Source: Candidatus Saccharimonadota bacterium (GTDB taxonomy: Bacteria > Patescibacteriota > Saccharimonadia > Saccharimonadales > AQU-01). Taken from it: a DNA stretch of 40,411 nt. The notes beneath the pieces are model-generated. The model made no database searches. It saw only the letters and a list, made by a program, of their open reading frames with translations, and was not told the DNA's origin. The DNA is taken from positions 1-40,411 of the forward strand of contig JAHBAU020000022.1 in the NCBI GenBank assembly GCA_018499905.2. Direction: 5' to 3'. Made by a program: the position numbers and the translations under genes. Of the stretch, positions 553-15,602 are shown piece after piece; the first letter of the stretch is position 1; every line of letters begins with the position of its first letter.

Positions 553-3459
553 TTATTTGATCACAAGATTGACTAGCCGGCCAGGCACGTAAATCTCTTT
601 GACTATTTCTTTGCCCTTCACCAACGGCTCAATTTTTTTGGCTGCTTTGGCACTGCTTATCACCGTGGCTTGATCTGTGCCAGCGGCAACTTCAATTGTG
701 TCTCGCAGTTTTCCATTAATTTGTATGGCAATAGTCAGTGTGGCTTCTTGCAGATAGGTCTCGTCATATGCGGGCCAATGCCCCTGATGGACGGTATCGG
801 TTCGCCCCAGATCGTGCCACACTTCTTCGGCAATATGCGGTGCAAATGGACCGAGCAGCTGCGCGAGCGTCGACAACACTAAATCCCATGCTTCCCGTTC
901 GCCATAGCCATGCTTTGCCTTAATAAGAAACAATTCGTTGACCGCAGCCATCATCGCTGCCACCGCAGTATTAAACCCGAGCTCATCCATATCCTTCGTC
1001 ACTTTGTAAGCTGTTTTGTGCGCCAGCTTTGTCAGCTGCTCGGCAACTGCGTCATTAGCTTGAGGGGTTGTTTGCTCCAGATATTCCTGAACTAAAGTCC
1101 AGTAGCGATTTAAAAACCTGTAGGTACCCGGTACACCGGTACTACTCCAACTGGTATCTTGATCATACGGAGCAATGAACAGCTCGAACAGGCGCAGGGC
1201 ATCAGCGCCATACCCCGATTCAATAATATCCATCGGATCGACCGTGTTTCCAAGTGACTTACTCATCTTGCGGCCATCTTCGGCATTTATATAGCCGTTA
1301 TATATCAGGCGCTTGATCGGCTCCCGCTCTGCTGCCAAACCAGCATCACACAAGACCTTTTGAAAGAAGCGAATATATAAAAGGTGTGCCACGGCGTGAT
1401 CTGCCCCAAAGTAAAAATCAATCGGGAACCAATAATTAGCTTTCTTTGGATCAAAGGCCTGTTTGTCATTATGTGCGTCGGTGTAGCGGTGCAGATACCA
1501 GGTGCTGCAAACATAGCCATCCATCGTATCTGTTTCACGCTTCGCAGGCTTGCCGCAGGTTGGGCAACTCGTATTGACCCAGTCTTCTACACCGGCCAAT
1601 ACCGACGAGTTCTTGCCGTCCGGCACGTAATTCTTTACTTCAGGCAACACAACCGGCAGTTGGTCCTCTGGTACCAAGACCGGCCCATGTTCGTCGCAGT
1701 ACACAATCGGCACCGGAGCACCCCAATAGCGTTGGCGGCTTATGAGCCAGTCGCGCATCCTGTAGGTTGTTTTTTCTTCTGCAACGCCCTGTTTGGCCAG
1801 GTCGGCAACAATCTTGTCCCGAGCCTCGGCAGCCGACATGCGGTCATAATTACCCGAGTTAATTAATTGTCCTTCTCCTGGTAGATAACTGCGGTTCCAA
1901 AGCATATTCCAGACTTGTTTTTGATGATCGGGCGTTATGCGGTCTAGCACTTTGTCCTTTTCAACCCATACAAGTGTGTGGTTTTTCTGCTCATTGGCGG
2001 CAATTTCGCCTTGTTTATCAAGATTTTCGACTTCAGCAAGCAGTACCGTCGTGATGGCCCGACGGTTCTCACCCTTGTGCGAGGCACAATACTCGGCGGC
2101 AGTGAGCCATTCAAGTTTGTCGATAATCTTTACATGCTCTAATGCAGCCTCTTCTCGAATTTCCATGAGGGCTGCTTCTTCGGGAGTTTGACCATCCTCA
2201 ACCCCGCCCATAATACCGGTTGTAATACCTTCCAGACTTTCGTGCCAATCAAGCAAGGCAAATTTACCGGTCGATTTGTCTAAAAGATGGACGATCACAG
2301 TTGGCCGCTCGACCATTTTCATGCCAGGTTTTGGAGGATTATTGGTATCAGCAGCGTTTGGCATCACCACCTGCTTAATAGGCAGGTCAAACTTCTTGGC
2401 AAAAGCATAGTCGCGCTCGTCATGGGCTGGCACCGCCATAATTGCCCCGGTACCATAGCTGGCCAGCACATAGTCAGCCACCCAGACAGGCACTTTCTCA
2501 TTATTTACCGGGTTGATGGCGTAAATTCCACTAAATACACCGGTCTTTTCTTTGTTCTCCTGTCGTTCGACTTCAGATTTTTTGAGCGCCGATTTCACAT
2601 ACTCATCGACGGCTTGTTTTTGCTCAGTGGGCACAGCAGATTGCAAGAGTTCATGCTCTGGTGCGACCACCATAAAGGTCACGCCAAATAGCGTGTCTGG
2701 CCGTGTGGTAAATACTTTTAATACTTGGTCGCTGCCATCAACCTTAAAGCTAACCTCGGCACCCTGGCTCCTACCAATCCAGTTCTTCTGCATAGTTTTG
2801 ATCTTTTCGGGCCAGTTCAAATCGTCAGTTGCGTCGAGAATCTCATCAGCATAGTCGGTAATCTTGAAGAACCACTGATTGACCTTTTTCTTGGTGACTT
2901 CCGGATCATCGGCCCCTTCGTGCCGCCAGCACTTCCCGGCAGCGGTTACCTGCTCGTCGGCCAGCACGGTATTACACTTCTCGCACCACCATTGGGACTT
3001 TTCGTCTTTGTAAGCCAGTCCACGTTCGTACATCAAAGAAAACACCCACTGGGTCCATTTGTAATACTCTGGGTCGGATGTGTTTACCTCTCGTGACCAG
3101 TCGTAACTCATACCCAAACGGAGCAATTGTTTCTTAAAGTAAGCGACATTTTTTGCCGTTGATTCAGCGGGTGGAGTGCCGGTTTTAATGGCAAAGTTTT
3201 CGGCAGGCAGCCCAAAAGCATCCCAGCCCATGGTACTGACAGTGTTGAAACCTTTTTGGCGATAAAACCGTGCCACGGCATCGGTTATGGAATAATTGCG
3301 TACGTGGCCAGTATGCAAACCCGTACCACTTGGATATGGCAGCATGGGTGTCGCATAAATCTTAGCCTTCTCAGCATCTTCAATTGCCTCGTAGACTTTA
3401 TCTTCCGTCCACTTGGCTTGCCAGCGCGGCTCTATATCTTTGGGATTATACCGATTCAT
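553..3459 (-). CDS. leuS: Leucyl-tRNA synthetase with an internal NUDIX domain
   Basis: Charges tRNA-Leu with leucine (class Ia). The HIGH-type motif reads HTGH (residues 49-52), KMSKS is at 731-735, and CxxC pairs near 159-162 and 632-635 fit zinc ribbons. The CP1 editing domain is recognisable by TTRPDTLFG (251-259) and AHDERDYAFA (345-354), which carries the editing aspartate. At 968 aa it is about 100-150 aa longer than usual: residues ~385-525 are a NUDIX-type domain (box G418 to L440, core MEIREEAAL) placed between the AHDERD motif and the LINSG motif where CP1 returns to the core. The box deviates from consensus (Q424 for the first Glu, M432 for Arg, A439 for Gly) but keeps the metal-binding Glu residues E433, E436 and E437. 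The ATG at 3459 has GGAG about 8-9 nt upstream and overlaps the stop of the leader ORF at 3456-3539. Confidence 0.97.
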   Translation of the reverse strand: MNRYNPKDIEPRWQAKWTEDKVYEAIEDAEKAKIYATPMLPYPSGTGLHTGHVRNYSITDAVARFYRQKGFNTVSTMGWDAFGLPAENFAIKTGTPPAESTAKNVAYFKKQLLRLGMSYDWSREVNTSDPEYYKWTQWVFSLMYERGLAYKDEKSQWWCEKCNTVLADEQVTAAGKCWRHEGADDPEVTKKKVNQWFFKITDYADEILDATDDLNWPEKIKTMQKNWIGRSQGAEVSFKVDGSDQVLKVFTTRPDTLFGVTFMVVAPEHELLQSAVPTEQKQAVDEYVKSALKKSEVERQENKEKTGVFSGIYAINPVNNEKVPVWVADYVLASYGTGAIMAVPAHDERDYAFAKKFDLPIKQVVMPNAADTNNPPKPGMKMVERPTVIVHLLDKSTGKFALLDWHESLEGITTGIMGGVEDGQTPEEAALMEIREEAALEHVKIIDKLEWLTAAEYCASHKGENRRAITTVLLAEVENLDKQGEIAANEQKNHTLVWVEKDKVLDRITPDHQKQVWNMLWNRSYLPGEGQLINSGNYDRMSAAEARDKIVADLAKQGVAEEKTTYRMRDWLISRQRYWGAPVPIVYCDEHGPVLVPEDQLPVVLPEVKNYVPDGKNSSVLAGVEDWVNTSCPTCGKPAKRETDTMDGYVCSTWYLHRYTDAHNDKQAFDPKKANYWFPIDFYFGADHAVAHLLYIRFFQKVLCDAGLAAEREPIKRLIYNGYINAEDGRKMSKSLGNTVDPMDIIESGYGADALRLFELFIAPYDQDTSWSSTGVPGTYRFLNRYWTLVQEYLEQTTPQANDAVAEQLTKLAHKTAYKVTKDMDELGFNTAVAAMMAAVNELFLIKAKHGYGEREAWDLVLSTLAQLLGPFAPHIAEEVWHDLGRTDTVHQGHWPAYDETYLQEATLTIAIQINGKLRDTIEVAAGTDQATVISSAKAAKKIEPLVKGKEIVKEIYVPGRLVNLVIK

Positions 3460-3633: not shown

Positions 3634-5208
3634 CTATCGGTATGTTCGCATCTCATGTAATCTACCGCGATTCTCAGCATAGAGATCATTGCCAGCCAAA
3701 AATTGAAACGGGTAGCTCGTATCTGCACCGTGGACCATACTATCATCATGCATGCCCAAGCTGGTTCGGCCTACTTCTTCAATCAAAAGGGCCAGGTTGG
3801 CCGCGTCTAAACGCCCCCTGGTCAACGCGCGTGCATAGGCTGCATCAATTTCTTCAGTCATGGCAGCCACTTCTTGGCCAAACTGCCGATCAACACCAGG
3901 TATGATCAGCTCATGACCTAGTTGGGTATATGCTGAAAAATCCTCAAGAAAAGCTTGAAACTGCCCAAATCGATCGCTTACTCTCCCACCATCACGCATC
4001 CTTGGATTAAGTATGCGTGACTTCATCACGCCTGGCAGTCGAAATACAATTGCACCAACTGCCCCGTCATAGTGCATAGACGGTGTACTTTCATCAATGA
4101 CCGCCTCTTGAATCTGTATGCCAGGGACCGAAGCATCGCCTGGAAATATATCATGGAGGGGGTCCACGAAAGTGCAGTTATCTTCGCCTCCGTACGTAAT
4201 CGAATCTATATGGTGTTGTATACCTGGCACACGATGTCGACCCTGGAACGCCTGTAGCCGCTTCATTAAGTAACGTAGGATCTCTGCGTCTTTGTCGCCG
4301 ACAACTTCATAATGCTCAAGATCGCTGAAAATCTCTTGGCCGTACAACGCATCATATGGATGCAAATCGCCCGAAACACCTGGAATTGACCGATTGAAAT
4401 CCTGGGCATAATCCCGGTAGCTGACGCGGTTTTTTAAATCATATTGTTGTACCAAAAGTGCCGCTCGCTGTGCCGGATGCAACCAGTTCTCACTTCCTAA
4501 ATAAGAAAAGCCAACGGTGTAGACAAGTCCAAATCTTTCATTTAGAAACTTAATCATTCCGGTTTCATCCAAACCAAATAATTCATTGAAACGCACCTTA
4601 GTATTAAACTGTTCCATCGGCAGCCAACGCATGCCGTACATTTGACGAAGCCCAAACTCAGTACGATCATTATTCAAGTCAGGATACTTGGCTGTTACCC
4701 TTGGTGCTGCCGGAACGTCAAGCAGGCCTAAAGCTTTGGCATGTCTCATAAAATCAAACTGCGGTTTTAGTCGTTCTGCATCAAAGTCGTGAGCATCTTG
4801 TGTTCCACCAAATGATTGAATCAGAAAATCGGATGAGTGACTGTACATACGGTGCAATGCATCGTTAACGTAATCTTGAGCAAAATGGGCCTCTACTTCC
4901 TCGGGTGTAGAACCTAGAGCAAAGTCGAGTGCAACCTGGCCAAAAATACCAATATATCGTTTCAAATCGGTACGCTCAATTGGTCCATCACCCATAAAGC
5001 ACAGTTGGGATTTGTCCATTGCAGCCCAAGTCGCCGGGCTTTGCGCAGCCTCGACAATTATCGGATTATTGCCATGGAATAATTCGACCGTCGGCAACAG
5101 CGGATCGATAATAGTAAAATAATCACGCTCAGGACTGAGCATATAAGTCGCGCGTCCATAATTCCGGTCAGTAAAGTATTCTTCGACTACCCTCGGCTCA
5201 ATCCTCAT
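3634..5208 (-). CDS. Orphan 524-aa protein of unknown function
   Basis: Soluble by appearance: no signal peptide or membrane segment, rich in acidic and aromatic residues, only two cysteines. Local sequences include GIFGQVALDFALG near residue 90, HPAQRAALLVQQY in the middle and a GQFQAFLEDFSAYTQLGHELI stretch near 410. I recognise no family or catalytic signature. The ATG at 5208 has a TACAAT -10 box ending 6 nt upstream, so it is probably leaderless and monocistronic; ddl ends 87 nt upstream and the leuS leader promoter follows it. It is probably a protein restricted to this lineage. Confidence 0.75.
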   Translation of the reverse strand: MRIEPRVVEEYFTDRNYGRATYMLSPERDYFTIIDPLLPTVELFHGNNPIIVEAAQSPATWAAMDKSQLCFMGDGPIERTDLKRYIGIFGQVALDFALGSTPEEVEAHFAQDYVNDALHRMYSHSSDFLIQSFGGTQDAHDFDAERLKPQFDFMRHAKALGLLDVPAAPRVTAKYPDLNNDRTEFGLRQMYGMRWLPMEQFNTKVRFNELFGLDETGMIKFLNERFGLVYTVGFSYLGSENWLHPAQRAALLVQQYDLKNRVSYRDYAQDFNRSIPGVSGDLHPYDALYGQEIFSDLEHYEVVGDKDAEILRYLMKRLQAFQGRHRVPGIQHHIDSITYGGEDNCTFVDPLHDIFPGDASVPGIQIQEAVIDESTPSMHYDGAVGAIVFRLPGVMKSRILNPRMRDGGRVSDRFGQFQAFLEDFSAYTQLGHELIIPGVDRQFGQEVAAMTEEIDAAYARALTRGRLDAANLALLIEEVGRTSLGMHDDSMVHGADTSYPFQFLAGNDLYAENRGRLHEMRTYR

Positions 5209-9291: not shown

Positions 9292-9368
9292 GGGGCTGTA
9301 GCTCAGTTGGCTAGAGCGCTTCCATGGCATGGAAGAGGTCCAGGGTTCGAGTCCCTGTAGCTCCACCA
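9292..9368 (+). tRNA. tRNA-Ala (anticodon GGC)
   Basis: Full cloverleaf: acceptor GGGGCUG... paired with the 3' end, anticodon arm CUUCC-AUGGCAU-GGAAG with anticodon GGC, T-arm CAGGG-UUCGAGU-CCCUG, and encoded CCA at 9366-9368. It reads GCC (and GCU) Ala codons. It is followed directly by a terminator hairpin and then by the structured repeat at 9419. Confidence 0.97.
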
Positions 9369-9369
9369 C

Positions 9370-9408
9370 AATAAAATGATCTTGTCGTAGGCAAGGTCTT
9401 TTTATTTT
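9370..9408 (+). terminator. Terminator hairpin of tRNA-Ala
   Basis: Starts 2 nt past the CCA end: AATAAAA...CTTG pairs with CAAG...TTTTATT, A/T-rich and followed by TTTT. A hairpin in the same relative position follows tRNA-Leu. Confidence 0.6.
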
Positions 9409-9418
9409 GTGACGACTT

Positions 9419-9535
9419 GGGACTCGAACGGGAATGTCCTTGAATGGACATTTCCCGCCCTTTAGCCTGCAAGCTGTGCTTGCAGGTGGCCTCAGCCAAA
9501 ACTAACTTTGTTTTGGCCGGCCAGGTCGAAGTCCC
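9419..9535 (+). repeat. 117-nt structured element, copy 1 (downstream of tRNA-Ala)
   Basis: In the tRNA sense it begins GGGACTCGAAC and ends AGGTCGAAGTCCC; the two ends pair (GGGACT/AGTCCC plus CGA/TCG around a bulge) to close a multibranch fold. Inside are hairpin 1 (GGGAATGTCC, loop TTGAAT, GGACATTTCCC), the linker CCCTTTAGCC, hairpin 2 (CCTGCAAG, CTGTG, CTTGCAGG), GGTGGCC, hairpin 3 (GCCAAAAC, 7-nt loop, GTTTTGGC) and GGCCAGG. TGGCC and GGCCA can pair to extend hairpin 3. A second copy of exactly the same length lies at 15354-15470 on the other strand, also downstream of a tRNA. Candidate structured RNA or tRNA-linked mobile unit. Confidence 0.75.
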
Positions 9536-9548
9536 TGTAGCTCCACCA
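9525..9548 (+). pseudogene. Partial copy of the tRNA-Ala 3' end
   Basis: The sequence from the T-loop through CCA of tRNA-Ala (compare 9345-9368) is repeated here with only a couple of changes in the T-loop; the last 18 nt (GTCCCTGTAGCTCCACCA) are identical. It overlaps the 3' end of the 117-nt element and is followed at once by a terminator. Direct repeats of a tRNA 3' end are the classic scar of site-specific integration. Confidence 0.7.
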
Positions 9549-9580
9549 TTAAAAAAGACCGATTTCTCGGTCTTTTTTAA
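9549..9580 (+). terminator. Strong terminator hairpin
   Basis: Perfect 14-bp stem (TTAAAAAAGACCGA / TCGGTCTTTTTTAA) with a TTTC loop. It acts as an intrinsic terminator in both directions. It begins directly after the CCA of the tRNA-Ala tail copy. Confidence 0.8.
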
Positions 9581-9612
9581 TTTCGTGCGCGCCCGCGTCT
9601 TCTTAGGCTTCA

Positions 9613-9659
9613 ACCATACACATAACTACTCAATCAAGTGGAGTAGTTATGTGTATGGT
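9613..9659. repeat. Perfect 19-bp inverted repeat
   Basis: ACCATACACATAACTACTC (9613-9631) and its exact complement (9641-9659) with a 9-nt loop. No T-run follows. Without mismatches over 19 bp it looks recent or constrained. Function unknown. Confidence 0.7.
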
Positions 9660-9730
9660 CTAGCGCCACTCTTCCTTACCCCAAGAAAAGAATTTTCTTT
9701 GGGACCCCTATGCCGGCTGGGCTTCATTCC

Positions 9731-9775
9731 CACGAATGTAAAAAAGCCACCTACGGTGACTTTCTTACATTCGTG
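9731..9775. repeat. Stem-loop with 11-bp outer stem
   Basis: CACGAATGTAA (9731-9741) pairs with TTACATTCGTG (9765-9775); an inner AAGCCACC/GGTGACTT stem closes on a TAC loop. The 3' arm overlaps one copy of the TTCGTGCGCGCCC repeat. Possibly a terminator. Confidence 0.6.
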
Positions 9776-9781
9776 CGCGCC

Positions 9782-9808
9782 CACCCGCGACGGGTGTTTG
9801 TTTTTTTG
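9782..9808 (+). terminator. Terminator-like hairpin with T-run
   Basis: CACCCG-CGA-CGGGTG followed by TTTGTTTTTTT, an intrinsic terminator on the plus strand. Confidence 0.65.
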
Positions 9809-9875
9809 GTTTTTATTTTCAAACGTTCACGCCGCGATTAGCGCACGAACCTAGTTTTAGCATAACCTTTATAGC

Positions 9876-15005: not shown

Positions 15006-15329
15006 TTATGACCAGGTTCGTTGCTTGTTTATTGCTTCTTTATCACGAAAAGCCTGCTCTAGATCGATGTCGAAATGATTACAGATGTCCAAAAGATAAA
15101 CCAAGACGTCAGCTGCCTCATGCGCAAGTTGATGCTCTTTTGAATCACTGGCCAATTTTACACTTGTGTGTTTGCGAGCTGCTTTGGCTAACTCACCACA
15201 CTCCTCCATGAGTAGCATGAATAATTCAGGAACGGTTTCTTTGTCGAATCCCCTTTCGACAACCATTTGCTTAATGTAAGTTTGGAAATCAAATAGGGTT
15301 GGGTCTTTTTTTAGGTGGAGTTTGCTCAT
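15006..15329 (-). CDS. MazG-like nucleotide pyrophosphohydrolase
   Basis: A 107-aa all-alpha NTP pyrophosphatase. The metal-binding signature EECGELAKAARKH and the downstream EAADVLVYLLDICNHFDID supply the EExxE...ExxD acidic set of the MazG/dUTPase-like superfamily. It likely hydrolyses non-canonical NTPs. The frame extends upstream to a GTG at 15347, but TATAAT (15336-15341) ends exactly 6 nt before the ATG at 15329, so I take that start and infer a leaderless mRNA. The 3' end of the 117-nt element lies only 12 nt before the -10 box. Confidence 0.88.
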   Translation of the reverse strand: MSKLHLKKDPTLFDFQTYIKQMVVERGFDKETVPELFMLLMEECGELAKAARKHTSVKLASDSKEHQLAHEAADVLVYLLDICNHFDIDLEQAFRDKEAINKQRTWS

Positions 15330-15335
15330 GGAGGA

Positions 15336-15341
15336 ATTATA
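15336..15341 (-). promoter_or_regulatory. -10 box of the MazG-like gene
   Basis: TATAAT on the minus strand ending 6 nt before the ATG at 15329. The -35 position falls within the 3' end of the 117-nt element (15354-15361) and has no good TTGACA match. Confidence 0.5.
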
Positions 15342-15353
15342 GCTCACTTAGGA

Positions 15354-15470
15354 GGGACTCGCCTGGCCAGCAGATCAAAAATAGATTTGCTAAGGGCCAC
15401 CCCAAATCCAGTTGGTTTGGGGCTAAAGGGTCGGGGAATGTCCATTCAAGGACATTCCCGTTCGAGTCCC
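15354..15470 (-). repeat. 117-nt structured element, copy 2 (downstream of tRNA-Leu)
   Basis: On the minus strand it starts with the same 34 nt as the copy at 9419 and keeps the linkers CCCTTTAGCC, GGTGGCC and GGCCAGG. Ends pair perfectly (GGGACTCG/CGAGTCCC). Hairpin 1 is GGGAATGTCC-TTGAAT-GGACATTCCC (10 bp perfect). Hairpin 2 is a different sequence but still paired (CCCCAAA/TTTGGGG plus CC/GG). Hairpin 3 also differs yet pairs at 7 of 8 positions on this strand (the odd pair is G-T on the other strand). It starts 46 nt past the tRNA-Leu CCA and ends just before the MazG promoter. Confidence 0.75.
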
Positions 15471-15480
15471 TGCCTTGAAC

Positions 15481-15520
15481 ACCAATAGAAAAGACCCTTT
15501 TTAGGGTCCTTACTATTGGT
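15481..15520 (-). terminator. Terminator hairpin of tRNA-Leu
   Basis: ACCAATAG...AAGACCCT pairs with AGGGTC...CTATTGGT around a TTTT loop. It starts at the CCA end of the tRNA, then reads TTTTC on the minus strand within the 3' arm. Functionally parallel to the hairpin after tRNA-Ala. Confidence 0.6.
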
Positions 15521-15602
15521 GGGCGAGGAGGGACTCGAACCCTCAAGACTTTTGGTCAGCGGATTTTAAGTCCACCGCGTATACCAATTCCGCCACTCGC
15601 CC
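15517..15602 (-). tRNA. tRNA-Leu (anticodon UAA)
   Basis: A class II tRNA of 86 nt with a long variable arm: acceptor GGGCGAG/CTCGCCC, anticodon arm GTGGA-CTTAAAA-TCCGC with anticodon UAA, T-arm GAGGG-TTCGAGT-CCCTC and encoded CCA. Reads UUA and UUG, the codon that sits in the leuS leader hairpin. Confidence 0.96.

Follow-up and report, generated by a model that had tools for sequence, protein, structure and literature searches.

Putative tRNA-anchored gene cassettes with folded end sites in Saccharibacteria

The core of the integron attC site has the R''/R' consensus RYYYAAC / GTTRRRY. Integron attC sites recombine as folded structures, and the crossover falls in the R box (PMC4792948). The DNA of CTXphi is single-stranded when it integrates; two inverted attP copies ~90 nt apart fold to a ~150-bp structure, and the host Xer recombines this structure with dif (PMC5357621). 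In tRNA-targeted islands, the T-loop is a known crossover subsite (PMC4383910).

The stretch of DNA analyzed here (the window, 40,411 nt) comes from a Candidatus Saccharimonadota bacterium (GCA_018499905.2, contig JAHBAU020000022.1, positions 1-40,411, forward strand). It contains two 117-nt elements, at 9419-9535(+) and 15354-15470(-), with identical leading 34 nt, as a sequence-only reading of the window had reported. That reading also gave the order as tRNA, terminator-like hairpin, element, which holds at both loci, with 50 nt between tRNA end and element at tRNA-Ala and 46 nt at tRNA-Leu.

The family to which these elements belong shares with integrons, including integrase-less arrays (CALINs), short units that each combine one small gene with one structured site, a uniform gene orientation, arrays (also in genomes without an integrase), and paired site arms that differ between cassettes. 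Unlike in integrons, the acceptors are tRNA genes of many types rather than attI beside intI, the core is a tRNA T-arm at odds with RYYYAAC/GTTRRRY, each site is a four-helix junction, and most units are gene-free. Tested as integrons, the loci show oriented one-gene-plus-site cassettes in arrays, and none of IntI, an attI acceptor or an attC core.

Like phages of the CTXphi type (IMEX), the units carry two inverted target copies ~90 nt apart that can pair on one strand and rebuild the target, they have no integrase of their own, and a host recombinase would be needed. In contrast to CTXphi, the target appears to be a tRNA T-arm and not dif, three covarying hairpins lie between the copies, and there is no phage. 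Compared by eye, the arms match the tRNA and no dif-type site; the genome has a Xer. As in tRNA-targeted islands (Islander type) and tycheposons, the tRNA is left complete and a displaced 3' fragment lies downstream, at the far end of the unit. Instead of an integrase gene inside the element, however, the units here are tiny, structured and arrayed, with an inverted T-arm copy in nearly every one. No family tested takes the element as a member, although the mechanism proposed below has precedents; in the open-licence literature searched we found no tRNA-anchored cassettes or integrons in Saccharibacteria/CPR.

Window elements and their covarying family

The features of the two loci are as follows (strand in parentheses, basis at the end of the line where one applies).

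9292..9368 (+): tRNA-Ala (GGC), the anchor, with its 3' end from T-loop C56 to CCA at 9348-9368; ARAGORN, Rfam, sequence
9369..9409 (+): terminator-like hairpin directly 3' of the tRNA-Ala CCA; inverted repeat, then T-run
9419..9535 (+): putative four-helix attachment site, Ala type; folding, covariation, model R2 at 83.5 bits
9419-9429 (+): 5' arm of helix P1 of the Ala site, an inverted T-arm copy
9430-9456 (+): hairpin P2 of the Ala site, followed by the linker CCCTTTAG
9466-9486 (+): hairpin P3 of the Ala site
9488-9522 (+): hairpin P4 of the Ala site
9527-9535 (+): 3' arm of P1 of the Ala site
9527..9548 (+): displaced tRNA-Ala 3' end (T-loop to CCA), with one A more than the tRNA; sequence and general boundary profile
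9549..9579 (+): second terminator-like hairpin, 3' of the displaced Ala copy; sequence
15517..15602 (-): tRNA-Leu (TAA), the anchor, with its 3' end from C56 to CCA at 15537-15517; ARAGORN, Rfam, sequence
15481..15519 (-): terminator-like hairpin behind tRNA-Leu; sequence
15354..15470 (-): putative four-helix attachment site, Leu type; sequence, folding, model R2 at 95.0 bits
15470-15460 and 15361-15354 (-): 5' and 3' arms of P1 of the Leu site
15350..15361 (-): displaced tRNA-Leu 3' end, recognisable part (CGAGTCCCTCCT); sequence
15006..15347 (-): MazG-like ORF directly downstream of the Leu site; Pfam MazG, 28.5 bits

The 5' arm reads GGGACTCGAAC, which is its own tRNA's T-arm (GTTCGAGTCCC) in reverse complement. 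At the Ala locus, the 3' end of the element at 9527-9548 (CGAAGTCCCTGTAGCTCCACCA) repeats, in displaced position, the tRNA-Ala 3' end at 9348-9368 (CGAGTCCCTGTAGCTCCACCA). At the Leu locus, the 3' end matches its own tRNA over 12 nt. The MazG-like ORF behind it may be cassette cargo; the model search of the window found no further site 3' of this ORF. Past the second Ala terminator (9550-9860) there is a run of hairpins with a repeated TTCGTGCGCGCCC motif.

The closed stem enclosing three hairpins, described earlier from the letters alone, is more stable in both copies than in 200 of 200 shuffles (DNA parameters; z = -7.1 and -5.7). Two covariance models were built, R1 from nine copies and R2 from a hand-defined four-helix structure with 26 sequences. 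In the 26-sequence alignment, 91.3% of the cells of the four-helix structure are paired (92.8% for P1) vs. 73.5% after shuffling, and changes on both sides are seen in 26 of the 32 pairs. The covariation score is 0.476 and drops to 0.131 or less when the partner is slid by one column. P1 is 8-11 bp long, and its arms read NTCGAAC / G(T)CGAN, following the tRNA T-arm. The single-stranded linkers that had been noted in the two copies are conserved in the family alignment, as is the elaborate fold. Both window copies belong to one covarying four-helix family. Pairing of the CCTT linker with the AAGG that precedes the 3' arm, a pseudoknot considered by eye, is unsupported, as several copies break it.

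The search by covariance model that the sequence-only reading had proposed yielded many more copies in this genome and in other Saccharibacteria. With blastn, four copies were found in the window's genome, and relatives gave a few. R1 has 13 matches in the window's genome and also matches 27 of 198 relatives, and R2 detects the family in 40 of 393 genomes of the Saccharibacteria order (33 of 156 genera), among which it is scattered. A phylum-wide draw of 380 genomes added three carriers outside the order (G444, with four copies, G536 and G711). Across 84,980 species, a strict pattern matched 15 stretches, whose records are titled Saccharibacteria, Saccharimonadia or Ca. Chaera renei, or otherwise only "bacterium". 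In the viral collection, a single contig carries the element (L204, IMG/VR 3300037470_001284; 68 bits), ~1 kb from tRNA-Cys and tRNA-Leu genes, and it is probably the host flank of a provirus. A looser pattern gave one match in a phage-like viral contig (L205), which has no model score and was dismissed as chance. Nothing outside the tRNAs reaches an Rfam gathering score, and a permissive Rfam scan of the Ala locus returned chance-level matches only. A lack of further copies, a lack of covariation or an Rfam match had been named in advance as grounds for abandoning the element; copies are many, covariation is strong and Rfam matches are none, as befits a real family.

Two related structures were seen alongside. 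A short variant of ~70 nt keeps P1 and P2 and has one small hairpin (CACTTTTG...CAAAAG) in place of P3/P4; it occurs mostly at tRNA-Gln (L051:5187-5258, L041, L042, L160, L163, L164, L179, L180, L182, L183). A second structural class (GGTGAGA-hairpin-CGCAAGG ... GGTCGAGTCCC, ~130-140 nt) lies at tRNA 3' ends and also forms units flanked by exact tRNA 3'-end copies; it is found in the same arrays as the four-helix sites and in the window's own genome (L098:5507-5690; L178, oriented 4235-4420; L177, oriented 3226-3425 and 4355-4640; L240; L243; L011:241-460). Some of its copies are found 3' of tRNA 5' fragments (L062, L176, L201).

tRNA-matching arms, displaced tRNA ends and apparently inserted units

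We assembled a set of 99 distinct elements and looked for a tRNA gene in front of each, on the same strand and within the stretch examined. Such a gene was found for 87 of the 99, and in 69 of the 99 it lies at 41-57 nt (median 49). The putative acceptors are tRNA genes of 13 amino-acid types. In 54 of 67 close pairs, the 9-mer of the 5' arm matches its own tRNA's T-arm exactly in reverse complement, compared with a mean of 20 and a maximum of 31 in 20,000 shuffles; with the commonest T-arm left out, 24 of 28 still match. Examples of 5' arms are GGGAATCGAAC at tRNA-Glu, TGGATTTGAAC at tRNA-Tyr, GGGACTTGAAC at tRNA-Leu(caa), CGGATTCGAAC at tRNA-Asp and GGGGATTGAAC at tRNA-His.

On the other side of the element, identity between the tRNA and its displaced copy is 1.0 at T-loop C56 and 0.64-1.0 over the acceptor strand and CCA, with background on either side. 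Where the tRNA reads GGTTCGA, the element reads GG(T)CGA, and on this basis we place the exchange at or after C56. A tRNA 3'-end copy stands at both borders, and therefore the segment consisting of tRNA 3' end, terminator and element has the appearance of a unit that was inserted. Most copies have an unrelated terminator behind the second tRNA 3' end; in a few (L031, L036, L060 and G194), the duplicated stretch extends through the terminator.

Comparison of related genomes shows gain or loss of whole units, although the flanks are diverged and give no base-exact joins. A unit is present at tRNA-Arg(tct) in G011 and absent in its congener G042, and the same is true of tRNA-Lys(ttt) in G072 and its congener G086. 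Within one family, tRNA-Leu(taa) is occupied in G085, G194, G147 and G131 and empty in G030, G203, G051 and G209. From such occupied and empty sites, the Ala hairpin at 9369..9409 would be part of the inserted unit. A joined-flank search for the tRNA-Glu cassette of G072 found no empty site, and the flank is not conserved.

Units are ~190 nt long without a gene, or carry one unrelated gene; the gene-free ones are the majority. We found eight loci with an ORF between tRNA and element, in all eight of which the ORF has the orientation of the tRNA:

tRNA-Glu, G072: ~240 aa, no Pfam match
tRNA-Tyr, G075: ~250 aa, no Pfam match
tRNA-Lys(ttt), G072: RibD_C/DHFR-like
tRNA-Gln, G068: HAD phosphatase
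tRNA-Gln, G123: Imm5-like
tRNA-Gln, G033: cupin
tRNA-Gln, G008: 95 aa, no Pfam match
tRNA-Lys, G131: GIY-YIG

The tRNA-Lys locus of G072 is an array with four copies of the tRNA 3' end (att), three exact and one with one mismatch, delimiting three units or cassettes. Tandem units are also present at tRNA-Leu in G069, with an assembly gap within the first. In the window's genome, an array at tRNA-Lys(ctt) seems to span two contigs (C41 and C21, with a 268-bp overlap at 96%) and probably continues into deaminase-like and SGNH-hydrolase-like ORFs (named by eye) and then a further element. Contig C21 begins (L010:1-19) with AGATGTGTATAAGAGACAG, which resembles a Nextera adapter end, and the assembly breaks inside this cassette array. 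The long segment from tRNA-Cys to tRNA-Leu in G135 and G147 was rejected as a cassette array, since it holds no copies of the tRNA-Cys 3' end.

These observations bear on how the element should be classified. An elaborate conserved fold with conserved single-stranded linkers is what many ncRNAs have, and the element could be a structured ncRNA, made by transcription past the tRNA terminator or together with the cassette gene, and act at the RNA level, for example in tRNA maturation via its T-arm copy. However, a terminator-like hairpin precedes the element in most copies, the element comes and goes among congeners and is found in tandem with tRNA 3'-end copies, and the displaced tRNA 3' end would go unexplained. 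G-T pairs are also rare, at 17 of 740 in the element vs. 39 of 944 in tRNA acceptor stems, a weak difference. We regard an ncRNA as unlikely. The suggestions of a structured ncRNA and of a tRNA-processing device made from the letters alone thus found no support, given that most copies lie beyond a terminator-like hairpin. The third suggestion, a miniature mobile unit targeting tRNAs, is supported by the displaced tRNA 3' end as one boundary, the empty orthologous tRNAs of congeners, the tandem units and the arms that follow the tRNA. The sequence-only interpretation as a whole is partly supported, and the T-arm-complementary 5' arm, the displaced tRNA 3' end, gene carriage and arrays are features beyond it.

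A displaced tRNA 3' fragment is the hallmark of tRNA-integrating islands (PMC4383910), and the elements might be decayed attR sites of ordinary islands or prophages in which that fragment was kept by chance. At tRNA-Lys in G042, a 6.85-kb island (L014:10976-17822) is inserted between the tRNA and its terminator-element unit and is absent in the congener G011; its ORFs include a 529-aa serine-recombinase-like protein (named by eye) and a kinase-like one. The presence of such an island at one of these loci would agree with a remnant origin, but it joins at the tRNA end (CCTCCA) and not at the T-loop. Decay, moreover, would not retain a covarying four-helix fold with arms tailored to many tRNA types, and an origin as island remnants is very hard to credit.

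Candidate recombinases and a proposed mechanism

A Phage_integrase survey found one tyrosine recombinase, of Xer type, in the window's genome. Among 27 carriers, 26 have at least one tyrosine recombinase (the exception is a genome 74% complete) and 22 have a single one; the survey found no dedicated integrase common to them, Xer alone being shared. The Xer of the window's genome passes the XerA-type NCBIfam model and fails as an integron integrase (TIGR02249, 134.7 bits vs. a cut-off of 265). As Xer is a housekeeping protein universal in these genomes, its presence discriminates nothing and is permissive evidence only. That the host's single Xer is the enzyme is speculative, and we incline somewhat against it. 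In G021, the Xer gene (L089, G021:C8 ~69945-71741) is interrupted in frame, giving a 768-aa ORF, by an insert that looks like an intein with a homing-endonuclease-like part.

Alternatively, the same cassette sites could be moved not by the host Xer but by a dedicated integrase acting in trans from a phage, a plasmid or a co-resident cell, leaving arrays without an enzyme like CALINs; this reading differs from the main one in the enzyme only. It agrees with the lack of a shared dedicated integrase among the carriers, and CALINs are common and still able to exchange cassettes (PMC9668308). On the other hand, the searches turned up no integrase of a phage or plasmid alongside such sites, and only one contig of the viral collection holds an element. 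We consider an enzyme in trans possible, at rather less than an even chance.

Another type of mover would be implied if the element were a non-autonomous, MITE-like transposon (e.g., of a Y1/HUH or group II-type enzyme) that inserts just past tRNA terminators, the tRNA 3'-end copies being long target duplications. The position close behind terminators and the duplicated stretches that take in the terminator speak for it. Against it, 13 of 15 carriers lack reverse transcriptase, and 7 of the 15 (the window's genome and six others) lack Y1 transposase, by which membership in IS200/IS605 or REP elements was tested. Both are absent from the window's genome and were rejected as movers. The ends also follow the tRNA, unlike fixed transposon ends, and the unrelated terminator at the second tRNA 3' end in most copies does not suit a target duplication. 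A transposon of this kind is quite improbable.

We think it likely that the elements form a tRNA-anchored cassette system with folded DNA attachment sites, working like integron attC or CTXphi attP. In this proposal, each unit would comprise, in this order, a tRNA 3' end (T-loop C56 to CCA), either a terminator or a small gene, and the four-helix site. It would recombine with a tRNA gene at the T-loop, either at C56 or after it. The tRNA would receive a new 3' end from the incoming unit and stay intact, and the old 3' end would be pushed downstream to become the 3' arm of the site; the 3' arm would match the tRNA because it is the displaced tRNA end. On a single strand, the inverted 5' arm would pair with the 3' arm, and the resulting short helix (P1, which may stack on P2) would re-create the T-arm target. 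Since this fold requires a matching 5' arm, units would be tRNA-specific. A single exchange at C56 and subsequent replication would account for the observed product, repeated insertion would give arrays, and the excised junction would read ...AGG(T) joined to CGANTCCC-acceptor-CCA-terminator-5' arm.

Mobility of the units is suggested by sequence comparison, from which we infer recombination as the cause, a single-stranded step and strand exchange at C56. The fold and its covariation are observed; in the proposal, the folded single strand would be what recombines. Some observations argue against the cassette reading: a P1 of 8-11 bp is short for a full tyrosine-recombinase core site, and the terminator-spanning duplications could also come from local tandem duplication. 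The cassette reading also leaves unexplained how the 5' arm adapts to a new tRNA.

How episymbiotic bacteria with ~1 Mb genomes gain genes is largely open, and tRNA-anchored cassettes, if true, would be a built-in capture device that explains the small accessory genes behind tRNAs. They would also join integrons and CTXphi as systems whose recombination substrate may be a folded single strand. It is an evenly balanced question whether Patescibacteria have independently built an integron-like gene capture, with tRNAs as acceptors, T-arm-mimicking sites as cassette ends and Xer or another enzyme as recombinase, by which a reduced genome would acquire genes at numerous tRNA loci while having no mobile-element gene itself. 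Tiny parasitic Saccharibacteria appear to collect gene cassettes at their tRNA genes, in an integron-like manner but without an integron.
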